Assembly: GCA_900095875.1 (NCBI GenBank)
Contig: LT608311.1
Location: 2,140,774-2,204,773 of the forward strand
Direction: 5' to 3'
DNA from: Caecibacter massiliensis
Lineage (GTDB): Bacteria > Bacillota > Negativicutes > Veillonellales > Megasphaeraceae
Length of the DNA: 64,000 nucleotides
Below the pieces are notes generated by a model. That model did no database searches. It saw only the letters and a list, made by a program, of their open reading frames with translations, and had not been told where the DNA came from. Positions 56,379-64,000 of the stretch are shown here, piece by piece. Numbering within the stretch: the stretch's first letter is position 1; every line of letters begins with the position of its first letter. Made by a program: the position numbers and the translations under genes.

Positions 56379-56586
56379 GTTAACTGCCGCACAGGCAGCT
56401 TAGAAAGTGGAGCCGGGCGAACTTACGCAGACCGGGCGGTTAACTGCCGCACAGGCAGCTTAGAAACGGACCACTACACGTGGAAAGGAATCGAATGTGT
56501 TAACTGCCGCACAGGCAGCTTAGAAATTAATATTTTTTTTAATAAAGTCATCATACAAGTTAACTGCCGCACAGGCAGCTTAGAAA
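56379..56586 (+). CRISPR. Type I-F CRISPR array, four repeats and three spacers
   Basis: Four identical 28-bp repeats at 56379, 56439, 56499 and 56559, starting GTTAACTGCCGCACAGG and ending CAGCTTAGAAA, with a constant 60-bp period and 32-bp spacers. The repeat holds the Cas6f hairpin CTGCC-GCACA-GGCAG; cleavage after it gives the 8-nt handle CTTAGAAA, fixing transcription as left to right. Even the last repeat is intact. Spacer 3 (from 56527) is AT-rich with an 8-T run, spacers 1 and 2 are GC-richer. Confidence 0.98.
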
Positions 56587-56788: not shown

Positions 56789-57766
56789 ATGACAAAAGCA
56801 GAAATTGAAGCATCGAGTTTAAAAGTTATTCTACATTCCAAAAGGGCCAATATCTATTACCTGGAAAAGTGCCGAGTCATGCAGAAAGATGGGCGCGTGC
56901 TTTATCTGACGGAAGGTAAGCGCGAAAATCAGTACTGGAATATACCGATTGCCAATACGACGGTGCTGCTGTTGGGAACAGGTACATCCATTACGCAGGC
57001 CGCTATGCGGATGTTAGCTATGGCGGGCGTCATGGTCGGGTTTTGTGGCAATGGGGGAACGCCGTTGCTTTCCGGTGTGGAAATCGAATGGCTCAGTCCT
57101 CAGAGCGAATACCGGCCAACGGAATATGTGCAGGGATGGCTGTCCTTTTGGTTCCAGGCAGAGAAGCGGTTAGCGGCAGCGAAAGAGTTCCAATTGAAGC
57201 GATGCCAGTTCATCGAGCGGGTTTGGCAGAAGGACCGGGAATTGCAGAGCTGGGGTTTTTATGCGGATGACGATGAAATCGAATCAGCCATGCATCGATT
57301 CCATCGGGTGATTCGACAATCTGTGAATATCCAACAGCTGCTGGCAGGCGAGGCAGTCTTTACGAAAGCGCTTTATAAATATGCGAGTGGATGTGTCAAT
57401 AGGACGGATTTTGTTCGCCTTCATGATGCCCCTGCTGGTGACAAGGCCAATATCTTCCTGAATCATGGTAATTACTTGGCCTATGGCTTGGCTGCGGTCA
57501 CCCTATGGGTCCTGGGGATACCGCATGGCTTTGCCGTCATGCACGGGAAGACGCGGCGCGGTGCCTTGGTCTTCGATGTTGCAGATCTCGTAAAAGATGC
57601 CATTGTCCTGCCGGGCGCATTCATCTGCGCCGAAGATGATCTTCGAGATCAGGAATTTCGTTCGTATTGCCTGCAGAAATTCACGGAACACAAGGTTCTT
57701 GACTTTTTGTTTGACGAAGTGAAGCGCGTAAGTCAGCTGTGGGGAAAGGAGGGACCTGTATCATGA
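56789..57766 (+). CDS. cas1: CRISPR integrase Cas1 (type I-F)
   Basis: 325 residues. Integrates new spacers together with Cas2. The N-terminal SSLKVILHSKRANIYYLEKC, the central TSITQAAMRMLAMAGVMVGF and the metal-binding residues in the C-terminal helical part (His in FAVMHGKTRRGALVFDVADL with the Asp after it) match Cas1f. The frame is open from 56594 but start 56789 has AAGGTGAT before it and gives normal length. It overlaps cas2-3 by 4 bp. Codons are more AT-rich than in genes left of 55.8 kb. Confidence 0.95.
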   Translation: MTKAEIEASSLKVILHSKRANIYYLEKCRVMQKDGRVLYLTEGKRENQYWNIPIANTTVLLLGTGTSITQAAMRMLAMAGVMVGFCGNGGTPLLSGVEIEWLSPQSEYRPTEYVQGWLSFWFQAEKRLAAAKEFQLKRCQFIERVWQKDRELQSWGFYADDDEIESAMHRFHRVIRQSVNIQQLLAGEAVFTKALYKYASGCVNRTDFVRLHDAPAGDKANIFLNHGNYLAYGLAAVTLWVLGIPHGFAVMHGKTRRGALVFDVADLVKDAIVLPGAFICAEDDLRDQEFRSYCLQKFTEHKVLDFLFDEVKRVSQLWGKEGPVS

Positions 57767-60700
57767 TGGTACTGTTTACTAGCCGCAGTGAAAAGAAAGC
57801 CTTGTTGACGGTTCGCCGTATATTGGATCAATTTGCAGACCGCATCGGCAATGATACGTGGCAGACCATTATGACCCAGGAAGGCGTACAGGAAGTCAGG
57901 ACGCTCTTGCGCCGGAGTGCGACGAAAAGTACGGCAGTGTCTTGTCGATGGATTCGTTCGCGCAATCGCAGCCAGCTTCTCTGGGTAGTAGGGAACCGCG
58001 ATAAATTCAATGAAGATGGAATGGTGCCTGTCAATACAACGCGAAAAAATATCCTGCACAAGGAATGGGAAGGCGGTTGGCCGTATTTGTCTGTGCTCAA
58101 AGCACTGGTATCTGTGGCAGCACTTTTTCACGATTGGGGCAAAGCCTCGGATCACTTCCAGCAAAAACTGCGGTCGTCATCGATGGAGAAAGACCCGTAT
58201 CGTCATGAGTGGGTTTCTTGTCAATTGTTAGCAGCTATAGCAAATATCAGTGGAGACACGCAGAATGAAGATGCCTGGATACGCCTTTTTTTGGAGGGAA
58301 AGCTGAAAAAGACGACCTTGAAGAATGAGATAAAGAAACAGGGCGAACAGGCACATTCATTGCCGAGTATGCCGCCCATCATGCGCATGATTGCTTGGCT
58401 CATCTTGTCTCATCACCGTATGCCCGTGACGCGGAATGATATGGAGTGTAAAATGTGTGCAGAGAAGCCGCCCCTGTCGCTGGAAGGGCTTTTTTCGGCC
58501 GTCAAAGCTGGATGGGGGTATGAAGGCGTCGTTCCAGAAAAGAGAAATCCCTGTTTTTCCTTTTCGAAAGGGTTCTTGCTGGATGATGATGATTGGAATA
58601 AAGCGGTCAAAAAGTGGCTGGCACGGCTGCTTCGGGAAAAAGCACAGTTGCAGCAGCTATGCTCGGAAGCGAACTCAGCTCTGCGTCCACTTCTTTTATA
58701 TGCGCGGGAAGCCTTGATGCTGGCAGATCATTTCGTCTCTTCCCAGAAGTGTCAGACAGATGTACCGGTCGATGAGCAGAAGAAGGTTTTATATGCCAAT
58801 ACGGATGGAGATAAGCTCTGTGATAAACTATCCTCCCATTTGATTCGGGTGGCTGCGCAAGCTGTCAATATCGCGCACCAGTTGCCACTCTTTGCCAGTG
58901 AGATGGATGTGGCTGATACCGTGCGCTTCACACCTGCGAAGGCACCCTATCAGTGGCAGGACAAGGCAGTCCGCAAAATCCAATCGACCAAACAGGATGG
59001 GATGGAACAAGCTTGGTTTATCTTGAATATGGCAAGTACAGGCTGCGGCAAGACCACTGCCAATGCCAAATTGATGCAGGTCTTGTCACCAGATGGCAAG
59101 ACCATGCGATATACGTTAGCCCTGGGGCTGCGCTCGTTGACACTCCAGACGGGGAGTGAATATCGGGAACGTATGCATTTGACAAAAGATGAATTGGCCG
59201 TAATCATTGGGTCTCAGGCCATTGCAGAACTGTATCACCAGAAACAGAAAGTGGATGATGCGGATCCGGGGAAAGAATCATCTCGTTGCGAAATCGGCGG
59301 CTCTGGGGAAGAAGAACTTCTGGAAGACATGATTTCTTTTGAAGATAATTTCACGCATGAGCAGTTGAAGTATCTGGATATTTACCTGGATGGGCGTAAG
59401 AATCCGCAGGCGAAGAAAAATGGTGCTTTCCTGTTCAAACCCATACTGGTTGCAACCATCGATCAGATTATCCGTGCGACAGAGGTGACGCGCGGCGGAA
59501 AAGGCTTGCTGCCCTTCCTTCGTATGATGTCATCGGATCTCGTCATCGATGAAGTCGATGATTTCTCGCCGGAAGATTTGACAGCCGTCGCCCGGCTTGT
59601 CCATTTAGCGGGCATGCTCGGACGCAATGTCATCCTGTCTTCTGCAACGATTCCACCGGACTTGGCACAAGGGCTGTATCAAGCCTACCAGGATGGCCTG
59701 TGCAGCTACAATGCATTCTCGAATCACGCCAAGACGATGAACGCTGTCTGGGTCGATGAATTCCGTTCTGCATCCGCTGTGATACCACTGCAGCAGTCAA
59801 AGCAGTACGGGCTTGCTCATGAGAAATTTGTTGAGCAACGCGTCAAAAATTTACAGATGCAGGTCGTAAAGCGGAAGGCGTTCGTGATTCCTTGCCAGCC
59901 GCAGACAACGAAAGAAACATCATGGCAATTGTATGTTGCAGCAGCTAAGCAAGCCGTCCTGCAACTGCATGACGCTCATCATGTAGTAGATGAGAAGACG
60001 GGCAAGGAAGTATCTTTTGGTCTCATGCGATTTGCGAATATCAATCCATGTGTTAATATGACACTTTCCCTGTTGTCGGCTGATTGGCCGGAGGATACAG
60101 CGGTTTTCATTATGTGTTATCATAGTCGCCAGGTTTTGCTGCTTCGCCATGAGCAGGAAGTGTATCTTGACCATGTCTTGCGCCGCAAGCAAGAACGCGG
60201 CGCAAAGGTGGCATTTCAAGATGTTGTCCTTCGCCGCCATTTGGACCATGGCCAGATGAAGCGGTGTATTTTCTTGGTGGTGGCTACTCCAGTAGAAGAA
60301 ATCGGACGCGACCATGATTTTGATTGGGCTGTCGTAGAACCCTCTTCATATCGCTCGATTATTCAGCTGGCAGGGCGCGTCCATCGTCACCGCCCGTGTC
60401 TGCAAGATGTATCGGTCCCGAATATCGGTGTCATGGAATTTAATTGGAGGGGGATGGTCGATTCTGGAAGGAACGCTGTCTTTTGCAGACCGGGCTTCGA
60501 AAAAAATCCGGATTATTTGTTGGATAGTCATGATATGAACGATCTGATTCCAGCCGATAATTGGAACGATATCGATGCCATTCCCCGTGTACAGATTCCA
60601 AAACCGCTTCGTCCACATGCGAGGCTGATCGATTTGGAGCATCAGAGACTGGCGGACTGGCGTAGTCTCGATGACGAATATCCGGATACAGTGGGTGGTT

Positions 60701-61125
60701 GGCAGCAGGCTGGCTGGTGGATGACGGGTCAACCACAGTATCTGTGCCCGTTCCGTGCAGGGATTCCTGATAGAGACCTGTGCTATCGATACGATGCGAG
60801 CAAGGGAATGCTGGGCTTTTACGAAAGAAACAGCGGCGAATACGTGCCTTGTGGGGATATGTACAATTTGAAACCATATCCCAAGGAGAAACTGGATGCG
60901 CATAGGGAACGCTTTTGGTTGCCACGTGATTATATGGCGTCGCTTCAGAATCAAGTTGCCAGAAAATCGTATTCTGATGAAGAAGAAGGAGAGGGACTGC
61001 AGCGGATATCAGAACGATACGGTCAGCTGGCTCTTCCGGCCTATGCAGATGAATCCGGCAGGACATACTGGTATGATGACCAGCTTGGAGCGTTCCATAC
61101 CTTATTGAATGAAAGAAAGGGATAG
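57763..61125 (+). CDS. cas3: Cas2-Cas3 fusion nuclease-helicase (type I-F)
   Basis: 1120 residues. N-terminal Cas2-like domain (about 1-95) fused to Cas3, the hallmark of type I-F. HD nuclease motif LFHDWGKASDHFQQKL at about 120; helicase Walker A MASTGCGKTTANAKLM at about 422; LVIDEVDDFSPEDL at about 593 (DEVD instead of DEAH); SSATIPPDLA at about 625; motif VI QLAGRVHRHRP at about 870; C-terminal domain to the end. It degrades DNA opened by the Csy complex and helps Cas1 in spacer uptake. GGAGGGACC precedes ATG 57763. The stop codon overlaps the -35 of the small RNA promoter downstream. Confidence 0.97.
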   Translation: MMVLFTSRSEKKALLTVRRILDQFADRIGNDTWQTIMTQEGVQEVRTLLRRSATKSTAVSCRWIRSRNRSQLLWVVGNRDKFNEDGMVPVNTTRKNILHKEWEGGWPYLSVLKALVSVAALFHDWGKASDHFQQKLRSSSMEKDPYRHEWVSCQLLAAIANISGDTQNEDAWIRLFLEGKLKKTTLKNEIKKQGEQAHSLPSMPPIMRMIAWLILSHHRMPVTRNDMECKMCAEKPPLSLEGLFSAVKAGWGYEGVVPEKRNPCFSFSKGFLLDDDDWNKAVKKWLARLLREKAQLQQLCSEANSALRPLLLYAREALMLADHFVSSQKCQTDVPVDEQKKVLYANTDGDKLCDKLSSHLIRVAAQAVNIAHQLPLFASEMDVADTVRFTPAKAPYQWQDKAVRKIQSTKQDGMEQAWFILNMASTGCGKTTANAKLMQVLSPDGKTMRYTLALGLRSLTLQTGSEYRERMHLTKDELAVIIGSQAIAELYHQKQKVDDADPGKESSRCEIGGSGEEELLEDMISFEDNFTHEQLKYLDIYLDGRKNPQAKKNGAFLFKPILVATIDQIIRATEVTRGGKGLLPFLRMMSSDLVIDEVDDFSPEDLTAVARLVHLAGMLGRNVILSSATIPPDLAQGLYQAYQDGLCSYNAFSNHAKTMNAVWVDEFRSASAVIPLQQSKQYGLAHEKFVEQRVKNLQMQVVKRKAFVIPCQPQTTKETSWQLYVAAAKQAVLQLHDAHHVVDEKTGKEVSFGLMRFANINPCVNMTLSLLSADWPEDTAVFIMCYHSRQVLLLRHEQEVYLDHVLRRKQERGAKVAFQDVVLRRHLDHGQMKRCIFLVVATPVEEIGRDHDFDWAVVEPSSYRSIIQLAGRVHRHRPCLQDVSVPNIGVMEFNWRGMVDSGRNAVFCRPGFEKNPDYLLDSHDMNDLIPADNWNDIDAIPRVQIPKPLRPHARLIDLEHQRLADWRSLDDEYPDTVGGWQQAGWWMTGQPQYLCPFRAGIPDRDLCYRYDASKGMLGFYERNSGEYVPCGDMYNLKPYPKEKLDAHRERFWLPRDYMASLQNQVARKSYSDEEEGEGLQRISERYGQLALPAYADESGRTYWYDDQLGAFHTLLNERKG

Positions 61126-61151
61126 TCAGTCGAATCTGTTTCTGCTATAAT
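61123..61151 (+). promoter_or_regulatory. Promoter of the crRNA-like RNA
   Basis: TAGTCA (4 of 6 of the -35 consensus), 17-bp spacer, TGCTATAAT with a perfect extended -10 (TATAAT at 61146-61151). Expected start at about 61158, just before the first degenerate repeat. Confidence 0.65.
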
Positions 61152-61160
61152 GAATTTGAT

Positions 61161-61188
61161 AATATCTGCCGCACAGGCAGCTTAGTAA
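61161..61188 (+). repeat. Degenerate CRISPR repeat 1
   Basis: Matches the array repeat over CTGCCGCACAGGCAGCTTAG exactly (20 bases); the 5' five bases (AATAT for GTTAA) and the handle (CTTAGTAA for CTTAGAAA) differ. Confidence 0.95.
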
Positions 61189-61209
61189 ATATTTAAATCC
61201 TGAGGAAGC

Positions 61210-61237
61210 ATAATCTGCCGTATAGGCAGCTCATATG
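61210..61237 (+). repeat. Degenerate CRISPR repeat 2
   Basis: Hairpin CTGCC-GTATA-GGCAG is intact, with the GTATA loop seen in Pseudomonas I-F repeats; the 3' part (CTCATATG) no longer resembles a handle. It would form the 3' end of the crRNA-like RNA. Confidence 0.9.
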
Positions 61238-61265
61238 ATTTTTCTTTAGGATTGTATTAATAAAT

Positions 61266-61306
61266 CCATATTAAAATCTTGAGGAAATCAAAAAATGTGG
61301 TATAAT
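61266..61306 (+). promoter_or_regulatory. csy operon promoter with embedded PAM and protospacer
   Basis: Promoter TTGAGG (61279-61284), 16-bp spacer, TGGTATAAT with perfect extended -10 (61301-61306). CC at 61266-61267 is the type I-F PAM on the plus strand; the following bases 61268-61286 read ATATTAAAATCTTGAGGAA and match the RNA spacer except at positions 6 and 12. The paired region covers the -35, so binding of a Csy complex would block RNA polymerase. The transcript would start at about 61313, right before AAAGGAGG. Confidence 0.8.
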
Positions 61307-61327
61307 AAAAATAAAGGAGGGATAAAT

Positions 61328-62527
61328 ATGGGATCCATAGCAACTTACATCACCGATAAAGCGGCAAAGAAAGAACAGACCCCGGCAGAGTGGATACAAA
61401 AGAATCTACAGAATTTAGAGCGCTGTAGAACTGTATCACATATTGCTCGCTATACCAATCCGGATGTTGCCATCAGCGTACACGATACGAGTCAGCCTGT
61501 TGGCCAGGGATATTTGACAACAACCGACATGACAGCCGAAGATGATTTGATCGTGAATGGCGGTGCCGCCTATATGGCGTTTGCTTCATTCTTGGTAGGA
61601 AAATTCTCTCAAAAAGAAACGGCAGAAGAGCAAAAAGCAGATCTTGCGGCAAAGACGGCATGGCAATACTTCCGTGAAGATTCACCGTTTATTCGCAAAG
61701 AGATTGAATCTTTGGGGGTTGAGTATGAACCGCTGCGAGAGAAAATCCTTAAAATTCGGCCACAGGAAGTGCCACAGATGACGGATACTCGTTTGCGGCA
61801 AGTGTACTTTCCGACAGGTGAAGATGACTATCATTTGTTGACAGTCATCCCGCCCGTGTCGATGATGTTTTCTTTAACGGAGCAGGTTGAAACTGCATCA
61901 CGCTCACAGGGAAGGTGCCGTGATAAAGAGTCAGAACATTATGGAGAATCATATTTCATATTTCCGGATATCACACGTGCTGCATTTGGGGGATCACAGC
62001 CGCAAAACATGAGTTGTCGGAATACATCCCTTGGAGTAGATATTTTGCCTTCACAACCACCAATACTTAGTGGACGCAAAATAAAGTTGCCGAAGAGAAA
62101 TTTCTTCTCTGATTCGCTTTATTGGCGCAGATTCAGTGACACGTTATCTGATCTCGATGCTCTCTTTCGCGATCAGCGTCACAATCTTGAGACGCGAGAG
62201 CGGCGGGAGGATATTATCCTGGATTTTGTTGAAACTGTTTTGTACGAAGCAAATCGTCTACAGAACCTTCCTGCTGGCTGGAGCAAGGAGACTGAGCTGT
62301 CAGATGAGCAGGCGACTTGGCTGGATGAAGCCTATGGAAGACAGCGGCAAGCCGATACGGATTGGATTTGGCCGGTTTGCTTGGATTTTTCTCGCTGGCT
62401 CGTAAATGCCTACGGGAGGTTCTGTGGCATAGAGAAGCGGAAAGAGATTTCGCTTTCGGATGCAGAGCTGCACTCCTTTGCATCGACGTTGGAGAGCGTC
62501 CTGAAGCAGGAGGTGAGAGAAGGATGA
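61328..62527 (+). CDS. csy1: Csy1 / Cas8f, large subunit of the type I-F Cascade
   Basis: 399 residues. Binds the crRNA 5' handle and recognises the PAM with Csy2. Similarity to known Csy1 is mainly by position and by N-terminal AAKKEQTPAEWIQKNLQN and the ISVHDTSQPVGQGYLTT segment; sequences in this family vary widely. Start 61328 follows AAAGGAGG at 6 bases. ATG at 61295 lies inside the promoter and is excluded. It overlaps csy2 by 4 bp. Confidence 0.9.
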   Translation: MGSIATYITDKAAKKEQTPAEWIQKNLQNLERCRTVSHIARYTNPDVAISVHDTSQPVGQGYLTTTDMTAEDDLIVNGGAAYMAFASFLVGKFSQKETAEEQKADLAAKTAWQYFREDSPFIRKEIESLGVEYEPLREKILKIRPQEVPQMTDTRLRQVYFPTGEDDYHLLTVIPPVSMMFSLTEQVETASRSQGRCRDKESEHYGESYFIFPDITRAAFGGSQPQNMSCRNTSLGVDILPSQPPILSGRKIKLPKRNFFSDSLYWRRFSDTLSDLDALFRDQRHNLETRERREDIILDFVETVLYEANRLQNLPAGWSKETELSDEQATWLDEAYGRQRQADTDWIWPVCLDFSRWLVNAYGRFCGIEKRKEISLSDAELHSFASTLESVLKQEVREG

Positions 62528-63489
62528 ATAGAATTAAAACGTATTTGCTGTTGCGGCAGGTCAAGATTCATAATGCGAATGCATTCAGCAGCCCTCTCAC
62601 GATTGGCTTCCCCGCCATGACAGCGTGGCTAGGTGCCATGCACGCGCTTGAAAGAAAGCTTCGTCAGCATGAAGCGCTGTCAGGCATTCGCTTGAAGAAA
62701 TTGGCTGTCTCCTGTCATGACTTTGATTTGCAGACCTATAAGGGACCAGGTGACTATGTGAACTCAGTGATTATCACTGCGAATCCCTTGCGAAAAAAAG
62801 GTGCTTCCTTTGAGCGGCCACCGTTTATCGAAGAAGCGAGAGTCCATTTGAATGTGTCACTTCTTATCGAAATCGATGGGCTCATGCCGGGCGACTTTCC
62901 GGTTTTTGAGGAGAAGGTTACAGAAGCTTTGGAGAGGATGAAGATTGCCGGCGGAGCTGTCCTTGGTTTTTCGCCGATACAAGACGCTATAAATTTAACT
63001 TCGACGCGCCACTCCAGAATCCTCTTGGTTGATGAAAAAAATGAGGAAGATAACCGTCGTGCCATTCGCAGCCTCATGCCGGGATATGTCCTAATAGAGC
63101 GTCGCCAGTTGTTGCAACAAAGACAGGAAGAACTCAATCATCAAGATACCCTGCAGGCGATGCTGGATTTGCTGGCTCTGCACTATGAATACGATGACGA
63201 ACACGATACATGGAATGTACAGCCGCGCAAGGAAAAAGGCTGGTTGGTGCCGATTGTTACAGGATTTAAAGGGCTGACACCACTTGGCCACGTTGCGAAT
63301 CAGCGCGATGCGAGTACGTTGCATCGCTTTGCAGAACCTGTGCTGACCCTCGGCGAGTTCAAGATGGCACATCGGTTTGATTGTGTGGATGATATGATGT
63401 GGCAGTACCATTATGATGAGGATAAAGGTTTATACGTCTGTGTGAATGAGCAGATGGAATCAGATGAAGAGGCTAAAGGAGAGGATTAA
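62524..63489 (+). CDS. csy2: Csy2 / Cas5f
   Basis: 321 residues. RAMP-fold subunit that pairs with Csy1 at the crRNA 5' end. N-terminal YLLLRQVKIHNANAFSSPLT and IGFPAMTAWLGAMHALERKL are the family's typical motif; SVIITANPLRKKG and ARVHLNVSLLIEIDG follow. Starts at ATG 62524 within the csy1 stop (ATGA); the ribosome site AGGAGGTGAGAG lies upstream in csy1. It ends 2 bases before csy3. Confidence 0.94.
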   Translation: MNRIKTYLLLRQVKIHNANAFSSPLTIGFPAMTAWLGAMHALERKLRQHEALSGIRLKKLAVSCHDFDLQTYKGPGDYVNSVIITANPLRKKGASFERPPFIEEARVHLNVSLLIEIDGLMPGDFPVFEEKVTEALERMKIAGGAVLGFSPIQDAINLTSTRHSRILLVDEKNEEDNRRAIRSLMPGYVLIERRQLLQQRQEELNHQDTLQAMLDLLALHYEYDDEHDTWNVQPRKEKGWLVPIVTGFKGLTPLGHVANQRDASTLHRFAEPVLTLGEFKMAHRFDCVDDMMWQYHYDEDKGLYVCVNEQMESDEEAKGED

Positions 63490-63491
63490 TC

Positions 63492-64000
63492 ATGGCAAAA
63501 TCAAGCACGAAAGGGTTAGCAACCGTATTGTCTTTTGAGAAAAAAATCGTTCTCTCAGATGGTTTGATGTATGGGACAACTTGGGAAAATCGGCAGACAC
63601 AAGCGACTGCCCTGCCGTTGCATGAAAAATCTGTTCGCGGCACGATTTCCAATCGCCTGAAATCGGCAGTTGCCAATGATCCTGCAAAGCTCAATGCAGA
63701 AGTCGAAAAGCCGAATCTGCAGACTGTTGATGCAGCATCGTTGACCATGGAACAGGATACGCTAAAGGTCACTTTTACGATGAAAGTCCTGCCGGGTGCA
63801 GCTGTTCCCGCAGCCTGCAATGTGGAAAACCACAAGGAAGAAATCTTGAAAATGGGGAAGCGCTATGTTGAGCAATATGGATTTGGCGAATTAGCCAAAC
63901 GATATGCTTTGAATCTTGCTAACGGGCGATTTCTTTGGAGAAATCGCGTCGGCGCAGAAGACTTGGAAGTGCAGGTAAAAGCTGGAAATACGCAGTGGCT
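63492..64000 (+). CDS. csy3: Csy3 / Cas7f backbone subunit, cut by window edge
   Basis: About 169 residues visible of an expected 330-350. MAKSSTKGLATVLSFEKKIV and LSDGLMYGTTWENRQTQATA, then EKSVRGTISNRLKSAVANDP, are typical of Csy3, six copies of which coat the spacer part of the crRNA. AAAGGAG lies 11 bases before ATG. csy4 (cas6f), needed to process both the array and the crRNA-like RNA, should follow beyond 64000. Confidence 0.95.
   Translation, partial: MAKSSTKGLATVLSFEKKIVLSDGLMYGTTWENRQTQATALPLHEKSVRGTISNRLKSAVANDPAKLNAEVEKPNLQTVDAASLTMEQDTLKVTFTMKVLPGAAVPAACNVENHKEEILKMGKRYVEQYGFGELAKRYALNLANGRFLWRNRVGAEDLEVQVKAGNTQW

Follow-up and report, generated by a model that had tools for sequence, protein, structure and literature searches.

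CreR RNAs are described in types I-B, I-E and V-A of the CRISPR–Cas systems (clustered regularly interspaced short palindromic repeats and associated genes), where they autorepress through partial promoter matches and respond to the abundance of CRISPR RNA (crRNA) and to anti-CRISPRs (PMC13131331, PMC12737573 and PMC12948488, as far as the available portions of these papers go). The CreA RNA of Acinetobacter type I-F has the form 8 + 20 + 20 nucleotides (nt); its 20-nt spacer, with natural mismatches at positions 6, 11 and 18, directs repression of a promoter by the Csy complex, about sevenfold, needs positions 2–5, 7–9 and 13–17 and tolerates loss of 10, 12, 19 and 20, and its antitoxic function requires the Csy complex and not Cas3 (PMC10097628, from the available text). 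Here we describe a mini-CRISPR in the gap between cas2-3 (cas3f) and csy1 (cas8f) of a type I-F locus of Caecibacter massiliensis, lying in a stretch of 64,000 nt (the window; assembly GCA_900095875.1, contig LT608311.1, positions 2,140,774 to 2,204,773 of the forward strand). It very probably specifies a CreR-type RNA that would guide a short Csy complex to repress csy1-csy2-csy3-cas6f.

The element resembles the published CreR systems, in so far as the available texts describe them, in its crRNA-like mini-CRISPR RNA, its partial match to a cas promoter, the lack of a toxin gene and autorepression as proposed role. It differs from them in its subtype, I-F being outside the range I-B, I-E and V-A given in the available part of PMC13131331, in its target, which is the effector operon promoter (csy1-csy2-csy3-cas6f) and has cas1 and cas2-3 upstream, and in that its RNA is a predicted one. 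With Acinetobacter CreA, as it appears in the same available text, it shares subtype I-F, the cas3–csy1 gap, two degenerate hairpin repeats and the CC protospacer-adjacent motif (PAM), the spacer having 20 nt in CreA and 21 nt in the window, whereas CreA targets a toxin gene divergent from creA and the window spacer the csy1 promoter. The tracr-L RNA of type II-A (PMC11417352, available portion) is comparable in that a Cas effector, guided by a naturally occurring RNA, there represses the promoter of its own cas genes, but effector and RNA are unrelated and the latter has the form of a trans-activating crRNA rather than of a mini-CRISPR. Neither an I-F CreR nor a cas3–csy1 element of this kind, I-F systems of the class Negativicutes included, was found among the literature matches listed, which leave most subscription papers uncovered. 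The comparison supports placing the window element with the CreR kind, as the first known to this report in I-F; the idea itself is not new in kind. The element and its target comprise the following features.

61123–61151, + strand: promoter-like sequence of the mini-CRISPR (TAGTCA, 17 nt, TATAAT with extended −10), a consensus match only
61161–61188, + strand: degenerate repeat 1, with hairpin at 61166–61180 and 5′ handle CTTAGTAA at 61181–61188
61189–61209, + strand: 21-nt spacer, read from the sequence
61210–61237, + strand: degenerate repeat 2, with hairpin at 61215–61229 and decayed final 8 nt (4/8 changed)
61181–61229, + strand: predicted mature CreR-like RNA of 49 nt (8 handle, 21 spacer, 20 repeat 2), modelled on the published I-F CreA form
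61266–61267, + strand: CC, the I-F PAM, read from the sequence (PAM according to the available part of PMC10097628)
61268–61286, + strand: target of the spacer, matched at 17/19 positions, with mismatches at 6 and 12
61279–61306, + strand: csy1 promoter (TTGAGG at 61279–61284, 16 nt, extended −10 TATAAT at 61301–61306)

Both repeats carry 5-bp hairpins and lie 49 nt apart, against 60 in the array of the same locus, so that the spacer has 21 nt instead of 32. Near-identical repeats and 32-nt spacers, the marks of a canonical array, are not found here; what is found is one spacer between degenerate repeats adjoining cas genes, as in CreR. Compared with the commonest array repeat, repeat 1 is changed at 1/15 hairpin and 1/8 handle positions. 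The target contains the −35 box of csy1 and offers, again as in CreR, limited complementarity to a cas promoter next to the correct PAM. Every sixth base of a guide is flipped out by Cas7, and the original prediction, made from the letters of the window, had held that all positions able to pair do pair; this is true of positions 1–19 and fails for 20 and 21, which are unmatched at the target. The same prediction had placed an extended −10 promoter upstream, which is present as a consensus match ending at 61151, and had correctly located two degenerate repeats with intact hairpins and a 21-nt spacer between them as well as the CC-preceded 17/19 match over the csy1 −35. Its estimate of an RNA of about 50–60 nt has to be lowered to 49 nt for the predicted mature form.

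Downstream of the −10, which ends at 61306, follow AAAGGAGGG and the csy1 ATG at 61328. These 21 nt, as judged from the sequence, contain no toxin gene, the situation of CreR and not that of CreTA. The spacing bears directly on the possibility that the window holds a CreTA module, whose RNA would repress not csy1 but a small toxin gene, in the manner described for the cas3–csy1 gap of three Acinetobacter strains. Gap, subtype and crRNA-like form are indeed the same as in the available part of PMC10097628, and the LoGeW2-3 element described there is recovered by the same spacer scan as the elements reported here (see below). The targeted promoter of the window, however, leads straight into csy1 and leaves no space for a toxin gene, and whereas the LoGeW2-3 element and its target are on the strand opposite to csy1, the window element runs in the csy1 direction. 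We consider a CreTA module very unlikely.

The reading of the element as a CreR-type guide to the csy1 promoter finds support in its recurrence, with other sequences, in relatives. A search of genome contigs with one Cas2-3 sequence gave two loci only, and the comparative set was therefore built from whole genomes. Of the 380 genomes of the class, 36 contain the cas3f family; according to the reading of the cas2-3/csy1 gaps together with the spacer scan, 14 of these have a mini-CRISPR with a target upstream of csy1, 18 are without, one (L044) is partial and three (L036, L045, L057) are cut by contig ends. The 14 loci are L022, L025 (the window), L029, L031, L032, L033, L035, L038, L041, L042, L046, L047, L049 and L055 (Mitsuokella multacida, 5′ handle CTTAGCAA); L020 duplicates L055 and was dropped from the counts of 14, and L058 is outside the 36. 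In 17 of the 18 loci without the element a csy1 match begins at most 142 nt past the cas2-3 stop, the remaining one (L040) having an intervening array. In L022 the element follows cas2-3 and csy1 lies about 10 kb upstream of it, so that any action there would have to be in trans. On a Cas2-3 tree of 34 rows (L020, L056, L057 and L058 excluded) the trait needs at least nine changes and is little clustered (53/500 shuffles are as low), which suggests frequent gains or losses. A phylum-wide draw found cas3f in 3 of 398 genomes, all already in the set.

Mismatches between guide and target are concentrated at every sixth position. Over the 14 loci, positions 6, 12 and 18 are mismatched 6, 8 and 11 times, respectively. 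Within positions 1–14, mismatches occupy 14 of the 28 cells at 6 and 12 and 1 of the 168 elsewhere (13/24 against 1/144 when L042 and L049 are left out). Counted by phase over positions 1–18, they amount to 25/42 at the sixth positions and to 0, 0, 1, 5 and 3 per 42 cells in the remaining five phases; eight of the nine off-phase mismatches are at 15–17, where several matches end, and one is at 11. L038 and L047, the latter on the opposite strand, are mismatched within 1–18 at exactly 6, 12 and 18. Moreover, the pairing is specific to each locus: at the 12 non-sixth positions of 1–14 spacers match their own target at 11.93 positions on average and the targets of other loci at 6.24, and none of 100,000 permutations of spacers and targets reaches the observed total. 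Between the close relatives L032 and L033 both sides have changed at six positions (7, 8, 13, 14, 15, 17) with pairing kept. The window and Mitsuokella differ by a both-sided change at 7 (A/A versus G/G) and by a target-only change at 6, and L038, L042 and L049, whose spacers are identical over positions 1–18, have targets that differ from one another there only at 6, 12 and 18. Covariation of spacer and promoter with tolerance at 6, 12 and 18, which the original prediction had put forward as its check, is thus seen in the 14 loci, and its central proposal of a CreA/CreR-like RNA guiding Csy to its own promoter gains support from the 14 own-promoter matches and the concentration of their mismatches at 6, 12 and 18.

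Conservation differs between the parts of the repeats. In the 13 loci having an array for comparison (L041, with no array in the stretch, was excluded), changes affect 3/104 positions of the repeat 1 handle and 14/195 of the repeat 2 hairpin, against 56/104 in the tail of repeat 2 and 39/65 in the 5 nt preceding hairpin 1; the tail of repeat 2 in L022 is an exception, being unchanged. The parts of the predicted mature RNA are conserved and those that the predicted Cas6f cut would remove are decayed. Hairpin 1 is changed at 40/195 positions, and in 8 of the 13 loci both sides of its stem are altered; it would be required for the predicted cut and yet be absent from the product. These patterns have to be set against the possibility of a relic, that is, a spacer accidentally acquired from the own csy1 promoter, whose repeats and match then decayed to escape self-targeting. 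Degenerate repeats and a partial match are the leftovers expected from decay after autoimmunity. A further point for the relic comes from the 15 mini-CRISPRs recognised by their anatomy after cas2-3, of which 14 match their own promoter: the fifteenth, L044, has a CC-flanked site matched at positions 1–13 except 6 and 12 and unmatched beyond, where the contig ends; a single search, with no positive control, gave no csy1 in this genome. Decay, on the other hand, would not preserve hairpins through changes on both sides of the stem, spare the handle but not the tail, gather mismatches at every sixth base or yield matched changes on both sides between close relatives, and we consider a relic very unlikely.

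The strength of the match was evaluated by scanning 38 oriented loci for a hairpin followed by a handle-like sequence, which gave 997 candidate spacers, array spacers included; these were compared with CC-flanked sites upstream of csy1 or cas1 and scored over positions 1–18 less the sixth positions, 15 in all. Scores of at least 12/15 were reached by mini-CRISPRs only (15 entries from 14 loci, L020 being equal to L055), all other candidates staying at 11 or below. The same scan revealed no guide aimed at cas1, the best sites of the mini-CRISPR spacers all being upstream of csy1. Because the 15-position score skips the sixth positions, the mini-CRISPRs were ranked a second time with all 18 positions counted, both strands searched and the PAM left free; the best site was CC-flanked and upstream of csy1 in 14/14 loci, and in the window this site (16/18) outranks every other in the regions scanned ahead of csy1 and cas1. 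The all-18 scores of the mini-CRISPRs are 14 (three loci), 15 (three), 16 (five) and 17 (three), whereas among the 982 background spacers 14 is reached once and 13 four times with CC required, and 14 by 19 spacers and 15 by one without this requirement. In the genome of the window, a search with 17 bases held fixed, the CC among them, gave a single perfect match; when two mismatches were tolerated, two further sites were added, of which one is the spacer itself. For a functionless similarity that arose from AT-rich promoter DNA by chance or duplication the probability is negligible: spacers and targets are AT-rich and shuffled mini-CRISPR spacers score at least 14/18 at a CC-flanked site in 15/2800 cases (16 in 0/2800), but the best site is preceded by CC in all 14 loci although the ranking did not ask for it, and no permutation attains the observed match. 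The chance, relic and CreTA readings were all weighed and are rejected on the evidence above. The mini-CRISPR and its promoter match are confirmed as observations, and anatomy, match, recurrence with other sequences in relatives and constraint pattern are established at the level of the sequences.

From these data we infer transcription, processing, binding, repression and release as follows. The promoter of the one-spacer mini-CRISPR would drive its transcription, and Cas6f, cleaving the transcript at both hairpins, would release a 49-nt crRNA-like RNA; cas6f is present in the genome, and hairpins and handle are conserved. Together with Csy1, Csy2, Csy3 and Cas6f, the RNA would form a short Csy complex. 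According to the available part of PMC7296934, spacer length in I-F1 equals 6N − 4, where N is the number of Cas7f subunits; a complex with a 20-nt guide binds and forms an R-loop with no triggering of Cas2/3, and one with a guide shortened by 18 nt binds weakly. The mini-CRISPR spacers measure 18 (one), 19 (six), 20 (four), 21 (two) and 27 nt (one), against 32 nt in arrays, so that most are near the shortest length with clear binding in the available text of that study, and the rule would give about four Csy3 (Cas7f) for a 20-nt spacer. The short complex would bind the CC-flanked site over the −35 of the csy1-csy2-csy3-cas6f promoter by pairing outside every sixth position (1–5, 7–11, 13–17 and 19) and block RNA polymerase, while a short R-loop that does not trigger Cas2/3 would leave the chromosome uncut. 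The effector operon would in this way be autorepressed by its own product, and repression would ease on loss of Cas6f or whenever the complex is occupied or disabled by array crRNAs or anti-CRISPRs. Promoter positions in the relatives were obtained by search, except for that of L035, which was read by eye; in 12 of the 14 loci the opening 20-nt segment of the target covers the −35, stops within it or stops immediately ahead of it. A target over the −35, over the −10 or just past the −10 is in each case expected to hinder the polymerase. The targeted promoter of L035 is separated from the csy1 match by roughly 200 nt (L035:7700–7930) that include a GC-rich palindromic segment, for which an insertion or a small RNA gene are candidate readings.

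Several points weigh against autorepression by a CreR-type RNA. Promoter-like matches in 61000–61400 number two, similar to shuffles (mean 1.3, standard deviation 1.1), and the RNA fold of 61158–61240 is no more stable than shuffles (z −0.97). The Csy1 of the window, at 93.2 bits, is below the curated TIGR02564 cut-off of 169.4. Half of the cas3f genomes (18/36) do without such an element, and the geometry varies: the L029 target overlaps the −10, and that of L047 is on the other strand, immediately past the −10. In truncated I-F1 complexes affinity drops with shorter spacers (PMC7296934, available part). The association of mismatches with the sixth positions (Fisher test on positions 1–14, p = 6e-13) ignores kinship, and the 14 loci are not independent draws, their spacers being AT-rich and partly related by descent. 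L022, L029 and L033 score only 14 over all 18 positions, a value matched by 1/982 background spacers with the PAM and by 20 reaching at least 14 without it. Outside the class, ordinary array spacers reach 12/15 (L069) and 13/15 (L068) in the 12 loci scanned, and 12 is hence no clean cut-off everywhere. Finally, although the natural constraint in the 14 loci otherwise agrees with published CreA, position 10 is matched in 14/14 of them and dispensable in the latter (PMC10097628, from the available text).

Systems outside the class were collected by Cas2-3 protein searches, which gave 29 plasmid and 50 phage records; 14 loci were taken, 13 of them from plasmids and one filed as phage, and 13 were examined, 12 by the scan and L075 in the gap only, the unannotated L076 being left out. 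As a positive control, the scan recovered the LoGeW2-3 element of PMC10097628 at 15/18, with mismatches at 6, 12 and 14. L067 and L075 show the form of Acinetobacter CreA; mismatches of this type in the first 18 positions are at 6, 12 and 14 (L067) and at 6, 14 and 18 (L075), sixth positions included. The Psychrobacter plasmid pA11BP5 (L070:4650–4800) has an antisense mini-CRISPR in the cas3–csy1 gap, whose spacer matches at 17/18, with a mismatch at 12, a CC-flanked minus-strand site upstream of csy1; from its sequence it is a strong candidate for a CreR or CreTA element. On an Acinetobacter indicus plasmid (L068:14323–14375) the last, shortened array spacer precedes a degenerate terminal repeat and matches at 14/18 (mismatches at 12, 15, 16 and 18) a CC-flanked minus-strand site (6470) just upstream of cas3; this array-end spacer is possibly a guide, or its match may be due to chance.

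If autorepression of the effector operon is correct, CreR-type control extends to I-F, a subtype with many known anti-CRISPRs and Csy structures, and titration and release by anti-CRISPRs become directly testable. The loci would also provide a natural record of the guide positions that Csy reads (1–5, 7–11 and 13 on, but not 6, 12 and 18), and gene repression by I-F could draw on their natural guides, which have a length at which binding is not followed by cutting. There is about an even chance, in our estimate, that a wider picture applies, in which the I-F effector operon of many systems of the class would be autorepressed via its own promoter, apart from cas1 and cas2-3, by a thermostat reading free Csy, with adaptation and Cas2/3 supply controlled otherwise; long co-evolution of guide and promoter would have written the every-sixth-base blind spot of Csy into the sequence, and the Psychrobacter and Acinetobacter elements would suggest that I-F CreR and CreA interconvert.

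The locus is assigned to subtype I-F by its cas gene profiles. The four-repeat array lies upstream of cas1, and the gap between cas2-3 (end 61125) and csy1 (start 61328) is 202 nt.

56379–56586, + strand: canonical CRISPR array of four 28-nt repeats at 60-nt spacing, with 32-nt spacers
56795–57766, + strand: cas1f (TIGR03637)
57766–61125, + strand: cas2-3 (cas3f), upstream neighbour of the mini-CRISPR (TIGR02562)
61328–62527, + strand: csy1 (cas8f; TIGR02564, E 1.5e-26, 93.2 bits)
62530–63489, + strand: csy2 (cas5f; TIGR02565)
63492–63998, + strand, continuing past the window end: csy3 (cas7f), by profile match

Downstream of the window the genome continues with the remainder of csy3, cas6f and then a long array. 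The cas2-3 of the window is 78 percent identical, over the best segment, to that of Mitsuokella multacida, a member of another family, and 46–50 percent to those of genomes of the same genus, which suggests that the I-F locus was horizontally transferred together with its mini-CRISPR. The same genome contains, outside the window, a second, truncated cas1f-cas2-3 remnant (L058, genome contig C2:163000–177000), the cas3f pieces of which show 82 and 91 percent identity to the cas3f of the window.
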